A DNA stretch of 64,000 nt, from positions 1 to 64,000 of the forward strand of contig JAFZFX010000047.1 in the NCBI GenBank assembly GCA_017555695.1, given 5' to 3'. How positions within the stretch are numbered: position 1 is the first letter of the stretch; each line of letters opens with the position of its first letter. The position numbers and the translations under genes are program-made. Shown here in pieces: positions 60,377-62,004 of the stretch. This DNA comes from Alistipes sp. (GTDB lineage: Bacteria; Bacteroidota; Bacteroidia; Bacteroidales; Rikenellaceae). The notes under the pieces were generated by a model that was not told the origin of the DNA, searched no databases, and worked only from the letters and a program-made list of their open reading frames with translations.

Positions 60377-61741
60377 CTACTTCATAATCTTATCCAACTC
60401 ATCCACCGCACGGCGAATCTCGGCCTCGTCCACCTCGTGGTCCACAAGGTTGTTGTTAAAATACTGCTCGTAGGCGTAGAGGTCAATCATACCATTACCC
60501 GACAGATTGAACAGGATAGTCTTCTCCTTACCCTCCTCCTTGGCCATCTTGGCCTCGCGGATAGCCATAGCGATGGCGTGGCAAGACTCGGGAGCAGGAA
60601 TGATACCCTCGCTATTGGCAAACATCATACCCGCCGCAAATGTCTCAAGCTGCTGCACTGAGTGAGCCTCCATCAAACCATCCTTATAGAGTTGGCTGAC
60701 AATAGGACCTGCGCCGTGATAACGCAAACCGCCTGCGTGGATATCCGAAGGCTGGAATGTGTGACCCAAAGTGTACATCGGCATCAACGGAGTCATACCG
60801 GCAGTGTCGCCAAAATCGTACTGGAACTCACCGCGTGTGAGCTTCGGGCACGATGCAGGCTCAACGGCTATAACGCGAGTCTTCTTACCCTCACACAGAT
60901 TGCGGCGGATAAATGGGAAGCCGATACCGGCGAAGTTAGAACCACCACCGAAGCAGCCAATTACCACATCGGGCTCATCACCTGCCATCTCCATCTGCTT
61001 GATAGCCTCCTCGCCAATTACGGTCTGATGCATCAAGACATGGTTCATCACACTACCCAAGCAGTAGCGAGTTGTGTCGCCGTGATCCAATGCACTCTCA
61101 ACAGCCTCCGAGATGGCTATACCAAGGTTACCCGAACAGTCGGGGTCGTTAGCCAACACATTACGACCAAAGCGGGTTGTATCGCTCGGCGAAGGGATAA
61201 CATTTGCCCCCCAAGCGTTCATCAGCAACTTGCGGTAGGGTTTCTGCTGGCAGCTCACCCTTACCATATATACACGAAGGTCGATATTGAAGTACTGACA
61301 CGCCAGCGACATAGCACTACCCCACTGACCGCCACCTGTCTCCGTAGCCAGATACTTGATACCCTGCTTGGCATTGTAGTAGGCCTGCGGAATTGCCGTA
61401 TTGGGCTTGTGTGAGCCTGCGGGCGAAGTACCCTCATTCTTGAAGTATATCTTGGCGGGAGTGTCGAGCATACGCTCCAGATTATAGGCACGCACCACGG
61501 GCGTAGGACGCCATATCTTGTAGAGTTCCTGCACCTGCTCGGGAATCTCGATATAACGCTCCATTGACATATCCTGACGCACCAACTCCTCGCCGAAAAT
61601 CTGGCTCATAGCCTCGAAAGTGATGGGCTTCTTGGTGCGCGGGTCGAGCATAGGCTGCGGCTTATTGGGCATATCGGCCACAATATTATACCACGCCGTA
61701 GGCATTTGGCTCTCTGGCAAAACAAACTTTTTCGTCTTCAT
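60377..61741 (-). CDS. trpB: TrpB2-type tryptophan synthase beta chain-like protein
   Basis: PLP-dependent enzyme that condenses indole (or a related acceptor) with serine. It is 454 residues, with the PLP lysine K112 in GSHKPNTA, the glycine-rich phosphate loop CFGGGSNFAG, and the TrpB2 features of a longer N-terminus, SPAGSHK and LKxxG-like HAGGLRYHGAG. TrpB2 proteins often occur apart from trpA, as here. A leader peptide with two consecutive Trp codons and alternative hairpins lies upstream, so expression appears to respond to Trp-tRNA and a role in tryptophan supply is likely. Confidence 0.94.
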   Translation of the reverse strand: MKTKKFVLPESQMPTAWYNIVADMPNKPQPMLDPRTKKPITFEAMSQIFGEELVRQDMSMERYIEIPEQVQELYKIWRPTPVVRAYNLERMLDTPAKIYFKNEGTSPAGSHKPNTAIPQAYYNAKQGIKYLATETGGGQWGSAMSLACQYFNIDLRVYMVRVSCQQKPYRKLLMNAWGANVIPSPSDTTRFGRNVLANDPDCSGNLGIAISEAVESALDHGDTTRYCLGSVMNHVLMHQTVIGEEAIKQMEMAGDEPDVVIGCFGGGSNFAGIGFPFIRRNLCEGKKTRVIAVEPASCPKLTRGEFQYDFGDTAGMTPLMPMYTLGHTFQPSDIHAGGLRYHGAGPIVSQLYKDGLMEAHSVQQLETFAAGMMFANSEGIIPAPESCHAIAMAIREAKMAKEEGKEKTILFNLSGNGMIDLYAYEQYFNNNLVDHEVDEAEIRRAVDELDKIMK

Positions 61742-61776
61742 AACCTTAACTATTTATTGTTTATTATTCTCTATGC

Positions 61777-61816
61777 TAAAAATAAAATCGCCATCGTTCA
61801 ATTTGGAACAATGGCG
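61777..61816 (-). terminator. Attenuator terminator hairpin in the trpB2 leader
   Basis: On the minus strand CGCCATTGTTC and GAACGATGGCG form an 11-bp stem with a single T-G pair and a 6-nt loop, followed by a T-rich tail (ATTTTATTTTTAG). It lies upstream of the gene, not after a stop, and overlaps a possible alternative pairing with the leader-peptide end, as in attenuation control. Confidence 0.75.
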
Positions 61817-61860
61817 TTTATCTAAATATCTTATTCTATTATATACACAAGCAACAAGCG

Positions 61861-61920
61861 TCATTGTCCGATTATAGTCAATGAGCGCCACCACAACAAA
61901 TTATGTATATTCTGCATCAT
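61861..61920 (-). CDS. Trp leader peptide of the trpB2 attenuator
   Basis: A 19-residue frame (MMQNIHNLLWWRSLTIIGQ) with two adjacent Trp codons (TGG TGG), starting about 20 nt after the predicted transcription start. The stop codon lies in the RNA segment that can pair with either the preceding segment (GCGCTCATTG with CAATGACGC) or the terminator's first arm (CAATG with CATTG). This is the classical leader-peptide layout in which ribosome stalling at Trp codons decides termination. Confidence 0.78.
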   Translation of the reverse strand: MMQNIHNLLWWRSLTIIGQ

Positions 61921-61941
61921 CTCTGAAAATTTTGCTTTACA

Positions 61942-61949
61942 CAAATATA
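61942..61949 (-). promoter_or_regulatory. -7 promoter element of the trpB2 leader
   Basis: CAAATATA on the plus strand reads TATATTTG on the minus strand, an exact TAnnTTTG match 22 bp before the leader-peptide ATG. No TTG at the usual spacing. Confidence 0.6.
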
Positions 61950-62004
61950 AGCATAAATATTTAATTTATCGTAATATCGATGCACTTTTTTTGAATACTC
62001 ACGC

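Follow-up and report, generated by a model that had tools for sequence, protein, structure and literature searches.

The trpL attenuator of E. coli combines tandem Trp codons with three alternative RNA pairings, 1:2, 2:3 and 3:4, and controls the trp operon. Classical attenuators with double or triple UGG codons have been predicted by comparison outside Proteobacteria, in actinobacteria, and one of them is described as preceding the trpB2A operon of C. diphtheriae (PMC1262725). In Bacteroidota, Rfam family RF01692 (Bacteroid-trp) is a Bacteroidete tryptophan peptide leader RNA (Weinberg 2010, PMC2864571), leader-peptide attenuation has been reported upstream of amino-acid operons in Flavobacterium psychrophilum (PMC9723704), and leader-like sORFs are described in B. 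thetaiotaomicron (PMC7366714).

The locus studied here resembles these systems in its elements and departs from them in its target. It lies in what we call the window, the whole stretch of 64,000 nucleotides analysed (contig JAFZFX010000047.1 of the Alistipes sp. assembly GCA_017555695.1). The tandem Trp codons and the three alternative pairings of the E. coli attenuator recur in it, but the leader controls a single orphan gene, trpB2. The trpB2 of C. diphtheriae shares an operon with trpA, whereas here trpB2 stands alone and TrpA was not found in the genomes. Flavobacterium psychrophilum belongs to the same phylum and uses the same kind of control, but the word 'tryptophan' is absent from the main text of that report. 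A search of literature titles and abstracts returned no Trp attenuator on an orphan trpB2 of Bacteroidota. Ribosome-mediated attenuation is a known kind of control; what appears new is that it targets an orphan trpB2 in gut bacteria poor in the pathway, and how widely it occurs. Judged from sequence comparison, the leader very probably acts as a ribosome-mediated transcription attenuator that senses Trp-tRNA charging and places a lone trpB2 under starvation-induced indole salvage.

Architecture of the trpB2 leader

The trpB2 gene (60377-61741, minus strand, ATG at 61741) encodes a TrpB-like PLP enzyme of 454 aa (TIGR01415, NF009057). All elements named in an earlier note on this DNA—a promoter element, a leader with tandem TGG codons, a 1:2 pairing, a terminator and its T-rich tail—are present upstream of the gene on the same strand, at 61742-61950. 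The promoter element TATATTTG (61942-61949) matches TAnnTTTG, the reported -7 consensus for the primary sigma factor in Bacteroidota (PMC7366714). The leader ORF, MMQNIHNLLWWRSLTIIGQ and a stop, runs for 19 codons from ATG to TGA (61861-61920) and contains the tandem codons TGG TGG (61888-61893), the presumed stall site, represented in relatives by WW, WWW or WWWW. Segment 1, GCGCTCATTG (61879-61888), is followed by segment 2 (61858-61869), which overlaps the leader stop and has two possible partners: its portion CAATGACGC (61858-61866) pairs with segment 1, and positions 61862-61869 pair with segment 3. Segment 3 (61806-61816) is the first arm of the terminator and pairs either with segment 2, through 61806-61813, or with segment 4 (61789-61799), the second arm. 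The terminator itself, CGCCATTGTTC-6 nt-GAACGATGGCG (61789-61816), comprises 11 bp including one G.U and runs into the T-rich tail ATTTTATTTTTA (61777-61788).

The earlier note had also proposed that segment 2 pairs alternatively with the first terminator arm through 5 bp. The pairing exists, but it is longer, with 8 contiguous base pairs of which one is G.U, joining GGACAATG (61862-61869) to CATTGTTC (61806-61813); the same eight contiguous pairs, G.U included, can be written as GGACAAUG with CAUUGUUC. A linker of 48 nt separates segments 2 and 3 in the window. Folding of the 209-nt stretch, proposed in the same note as a check, gives -45.9 kcal/mol (z = -2.35), a value equalled by 4 of 200 shuffles, and brought out a further helix: a 10-bp outer stem, with its 5' strand within the leader ORF (61901-61910) and its 3' strand at 61841-61850, which surrounds the Trp codons and the 1:2 hairpin. 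The isolated terminator is more stable than the isolated 2:3 helix (-15.9 versus -11.2 kcal/mol), and antitermination must therefore be kinetic, as in known attenuators.

We infer the transcription start, the stalling, the tryptophan response and the enzyme activity of this system, and propose that it would work as follows. When charged Trp-tRNA is scarce, the ribosome would stall on the two Trp codons and cover segment 1 together with the 5' strand of the outer stem, freeing segment 2; the free segment 2 would pair with segment 3, no terminator would form and trpB2 would be transcribed. When tryptophan is plentiful, the ribosome would reach the stop codon inside segment 2, or would depart and allow the 1:2 hairpin and the outer stem to re-form. 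In either case segments 3 and 4 would form the terminator. The TrpB2 produced under starvation would condense serine (or phosphoserine) with preformed indole, making this a salvage reaction induced by tryptophan starvation.

Conservation of the leader and its pairings

We collected 110 loci and reduced them to 98 by removing four TrpB1-like proteins (below 50% identity), three loci with less than 300 nt of upstream DNA before a contig end and five duplicates. A WW leader was defined as a frame that begins with ATG, spans 8-45 codons and has TGGTGG in frame, at most 300 nt upstream. The search in relatives that the earlier note had called for found such a leader before 49 of the 98 distinct trpB2 genes; among 9800 dinucleotide shuffles 58 contain one (0.6%). 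Control sequences rarely contain it: it occurs in 25 of 2944 pieces taken from elsewhere in these loci and in 6 of 462 upstreams of other ORFs, two of the six lying before trpB1 of a trp operon. By TrpB2 identity, the leader is present in 16 of 17 loci at 84% or more, in 32 of 77 between 60 and 84%, and in one of four between 50 and 60%. The genus sample comprised 61 genomes drawn from a larger group; 23 carry TrpB2, one of them (G013) cut at a contig end, and all 22 readable trpB2 genes follow a WW leader. A covariance model of the trpB2 leaders matches next to trpB2 in 18 of the 61 genomes. Four other distinct places matched by the model are not Trp leaders—L133, L135 and L139 resemble ordinary terminators and L136 is an Ile/Leu/Val leader—and three further matches are antisense to trpB2 leaders that were known by then. 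A genome pattern, TTTG..ATG..TGGTGG, was dropped as too loose, with 174 matches versus 87 in the reversed control, and the window's genome may hold further WW leaders.

The TrpB2 tree has 97 rows, since one of the 98 sequences was too short. Of these rows 48 have WW, four have WxW and 45 have neither, and the WW trait requires 12 changes against 32.5 in shuffles. The leader is found in 36 of the 41 rows of the clade of Rikenellaceae and Odoribacteraceae, in 6 of 7 rows of a clade with Paludibacteraceae, sporadically elsewhere, and in 2 of the 19 rows of a clade rich in Cytophagales and Chitinophagales. Within the window's own clade, the upstream region of trpB2 at L012 has neither a WW nor a WxW leader. 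At L016 and L040, reading by eye reveals single-Trp leader-like frames ahead of a terminator-like hairpin upstream of trpB2, which are possibly decaying attenuators. The WW ORF at L072 (Fibrella) comes without a terminator and looks like chance. Of 47 leaders, 37 have a TAnnTTTG at 15-110 nt before the WW codons, mostly at 53-66 nt, a spacing that would suit a transcription start ahead of the leader; the same holds for 276 of 4700 mononucleotide shuffles.

The leader peptide retains HN and WWR in close relatives. Such conservation would be expected if the nascent peptide itself, in the manner of TnaC, arrested the ribosome together with free tryptophan, with no part played by Trp-tRNA charging. 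The Trp run, however, varies from two to four codons and is interrupted in distant relatives (WRW, WCW), the remaining residues change freely, and the HN and R codons fall in paired RNA. TnaC arrest accompanies plentiful tryptophan, and arrest of this type would better suit a catabolic gene. We regard peptide sensing as highly unlikely here and favour the sensing of Trp-tRNA charging.

A terminator stands between the leader and trpB2 in 47 of the 49 loci, the search having failed for L072 and L104, and the alternative pairing is kept. Both facts count against the view that the leader serves re-initiation coupling to trpB2 or shields the mRNA, the hairpin doing no more than stabilise the transcript or end a small RNA. 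Leader genes have been reported to raise translation by such coupling, but the peak described for Bacteroidetes lies at 11-14 bp (PMC4833913), and the leader stop in the window is 119 nt from the trpB2 start. We give this view a very small probability, and the pairings are considered below as parts of an attenuator.

In 16 close relatives, pairing reaches 99.4% of cells for the terminator, where two pairs are changed on both sides, 77.7% for the 1:2 hairpin and 79.5% for the main outer stem. For this structure as a whole, considered apart from the 2:3 helix, the covariation score and the number of cells paired exceed those of all 500 shuffles, and one of five measures, pair types, was matched by 46 of the 500. 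For the 2:3 helix every cell is paired (128 of 128) and variation is small, and its covariation among close relatives is weak, amounting to one compensatory pair in one sequence, with 24 of 500 shuffles scoring as high. An unguided RNAalifold consensus of the 16 close leaders contains the terminator only.

The words of segment 2 and of the terminator differ across lineages, and the longest unbroken helix that the stretch following the Trp codons can form with the locus's own terminator is significant (p<0.05) in 38 of 47 cases, including the window's own sequence (p = 0.04); the nine loci without significance are L006, L019, L035, L036, L038, L039, L069, L079 and L083. When segments and terminators were swapped among the 12 most divergent leaders, own pairs averaged 18.9 versus 14.1 for swapped pairs (permutation p = 1e-4), though some single cases depart from this, such as L036, for which 7 of 11 foreign terminators fit equally well or better. 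A test of the 2:3 helix by duplex energy gave a weak result (mean z -1.57, with 20 of 47 below -1.64), perhaps because segment 2 was free to pair with either arm of the terminator; the two preceding tests gave the clearer result. The antiterminator is mutually exclusive with both the 1:2 hairpin and the terminator, and the energy test on its own is not significant for the window (p = 0.41). Taken together, the leader frame and the alternative pairings, on whose conservation in relatives the earlier note had made its reading depend, are both conserved.

Folding under simulated ribosome positions separates the states of the leader; because segment 2 was picked by its pairing with the terminator, these counts are informative only as a contrast between states. 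With the WW codons masked as by a ribosome, the 2:3 helix (at least 6 bp) forms in 44 of 47 leaders, and in the window with 8 of 8 bp; in the unmasked leader 2:3 forms in 17 and 1:2 in 23 of the 47; and with the ribosome at the stop codon 37 form a terminator that differs by no more than 2 bp from the arm length used. The window's leader adopts all three states, with 2:3 (8 bp) under the WW mask, 1:2 (7 bp) when unmasked and the terminator under the stop mask, the last with 9 pairs against an arm length of 12 and hence outside the 37.

Segment 2 sits 33-58 nt before its terminator partner in the 47 cases, a point of difference from the E. coli attenuator. In 35 of them no more than about 11 nt separate the leader stop from the end of segment 2, and in three the stop is 14-16 nt beyond that end. 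In the remaining nine, all of the Rikenellaceae clade, the stop is 23-26 nt past segment 2. Four leaders with this arrangement (L018, L022, L023 and L029) were seen to traverse segment 2, stop 26 nt past it and end on a Trp codon (..NNECAPSHVW or ..SRVW before the stop). In this variant geometry a ribosome at the stop could not mask segment 2, and a re-formed 1:2 hairpin would have to do so.

Relation to Bacteroid-trp and other leaders

The Rfam models do not recognise the leader in the window. At the gathering score no leader family was found in the window, and a permissive scan of 61700-62000 likewise gave no leader family and no RF01692 match at E<=10. RF00513 (Trp_leader), the family of the E. 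coli element, has no match in the window and stays below its cut-off of 41 on two of 17 loci (25.9 and 22.7 bits). RF01692 matches none of the 17 loci with trpB2 leaders at E<=5, reaches at most 23.4 bits (cut-off 49) on trpB2 leaders in a genus search with strict filters, and is over its cut-off in none of the 61 genus genomes. The same model passes the cut-off of 49 on two Dysgonomonas trp leaders, with 57.3 and 50.8 bits; at these two loci trpB2 lies among trpB1, trpE and trpD, and a WWW leader precedes trpB1.

We built a model, R1, from 16 trpB2 leaders, and it finds both Dysgonomonas trp-operon leaders (42.6 and 40.8 bits, E 2e-7 and 5e-7). It also finds the operon leader of genome G078 at E 0.004 and the leader of G008 at E 0.2 only; RF01692 stays below its cut-off on both, with 33.9 bits for the G078 operon leader and 41.9 bits for the G008 trpB1 leader. 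The trpB2 leaders thus resemble RF01692 as Trp leader RNAs of Bacteroidota with two Dysgonomonas members found by both models, but the members over the cut-off here precede trpB1 of a trp operon, and the words of segment 2 and of the terminator differ. The two groups of leaders likely share ancestry, convergence being the less likely alternative. By Rfam's own test the trpB2 leaders are not members of the family, and from these scores we read them as a related, uncatalogued branch beside Bacteroid-trp.

In G078 the operon trpB1-E-G-D-C-F-A (L164 7435-14032; TrpE and TrpF assigned by best match, below their specific cut-offs) lies behind its own WWW leader, and trpB2 lies on a different contig with a second WWW leader. 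In G008 (L161/L174), of the same genus as the window, a canonical trpB1 stands behind a WW leader, MNRTLVHNYWWRLLQL, in a genome in which no TrpA, IGPS or TrpD was found; this trpB1 is a parallel to the lone trpB2.

An element of similar build was observed in the window's own genome before ilvD (L171, contig C52). It has an Ile/Leu/Val-rich leader, MNSCLYIIINLILVVLRR and a stop, with its ATG 149 nt before the ATG of ilvD, a terminator and an alternative antiterminator pairing, and is attenuator-like; L136 (G014) likewise has an Ile/Leu/Val leader. A second attenuator-like element suggests that this kind of control is used in this species.

Metabolic setting of TrpB2

The trpB2 product passes TIGR01415 (628.2 bits, cut-off 518.85) and NF009057 (718.5 bits, cut-off 366), and is below the cut-off of the TrpB1 model TIGR00263 (151.1 bits, cut-off 392.45). 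It is the sole TrpB-like gene found in the source genome (2.18 Mb, 88% complete). Queries with TrpB1, E, D, F, C and A against the window matched nothing except trpB2, and a search of the 88%-complete genome for TrpA, IGPS (TrpC), TrpD and a second TrpB found none of them. The gene is thus an orphan unlinked to trpA, and the two neighbours tested on either side of it are Gfo/Idh/MocA-type proteins. This gene content supports the claim of the earlier note that TrpB2 serves tryptophan supply. Because no TrpA, TrpC, TrpD or TrpB1 was found in the genome, the substrate of TrpB2 would most likely be ready-made indole.

TrpA, IGPS and TrpD each exceed the cut-off in one of the 61 genomes of the genus sample, always G078, the sole sampled genome with all three, and in 22 of the 23 TrpB2 genomes none of the three enzymes searched for, TrpA, IGPS (TrpC) and TrpD, is over the cut-off. 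Short TrpA matches of 18-21 bits (cut-off 102.35) in four genomes, three of which carry TrpB2 (G023, G032 and G077), were taken for other barrel proteins. Salvage of outside indole by TrpB is reported in bifidobacteria, in a paper that cites an indole-salvage role for TrpB2 in Thermococcus (PMC11085991). According to a survey of amino-acid pathways in the human gut, genomes with TrpAB only require tryptophan or indole precursors (PMC9026213).

The attenuator might be real and the reaction of TrpB2 a different one, such as serine or threonine deamination, with the control left over from an ancestral trp operon. TIGR01415 is graded merely as a hypothetical equivalog, and the trpB2 leaders appear related to trp-operon leaders, both of which fit such a history. 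A leftover sits poorly, however, with control that persists at every one of the 22 readable trpB2 genes in the genus sample and in 36 of the 41 Rikenellaceae-Odoribacteraceae rows, and with the same control over trpB1 in the pathway-poor G008; the closest solved structures, 6hul, 4qys and 6hte, bear the names tryptophan synthase beta chain 1 and 2 in their depositions. We consider a different reaction improbable and retain tryptophan synthesis from indole as the likely role.

Tryptophanase-like proteins occur in the genus. The model TIGR02617 passes its cut-off in none of the 61 genomes, but matches at E<1e-148 in 35 of them, and the two of these proteins that were tested (G003 and G023) pass NF053783, a more specific model. 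A form of the family that is more distant (E 1e-107 to 1e-111) occurs in the window's species and nine others; the two proteins of this form that were tested pass NF009709 only. In the window's genome, the minus-strand gene at L167 321-1769 (contig C17) encodes an enzyme of the tryptophanase/tyrosine phenol-lyase family that is below both specific cut-offs. At four loci with tryptophanase-family genes, two with starts set by eye, a rough inspection of the upstream DNA found no WW leader. On balance we favour a reading in which gut Bacteroidales without the tryptophan pathway kept or re-used the pathway's class of attenuator on the one remaining step, a lone beta subunit that is TrpB2 in 22 genomes of the sample and TrpB1 in one, as a starvation-induced salvage switch, tied to indole that tryptophanase, their own or that of their neighbours, would supply.

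The role of bacterial TrpB2 is still debated. That it follows a conserved Trp-codon attenuator, in genomes that yielded none of the other pathway enzymes searched for, suggests that the cell treats TrpB2 as a tryptophan supply gene, and the trpB2 leaders add a branch missed by current RNA family models. Indole is a signal in the gut and a host-active metabolite, and the leaders described here suggest that its return to tryptophan by gut Bacteroidales may be regulated.
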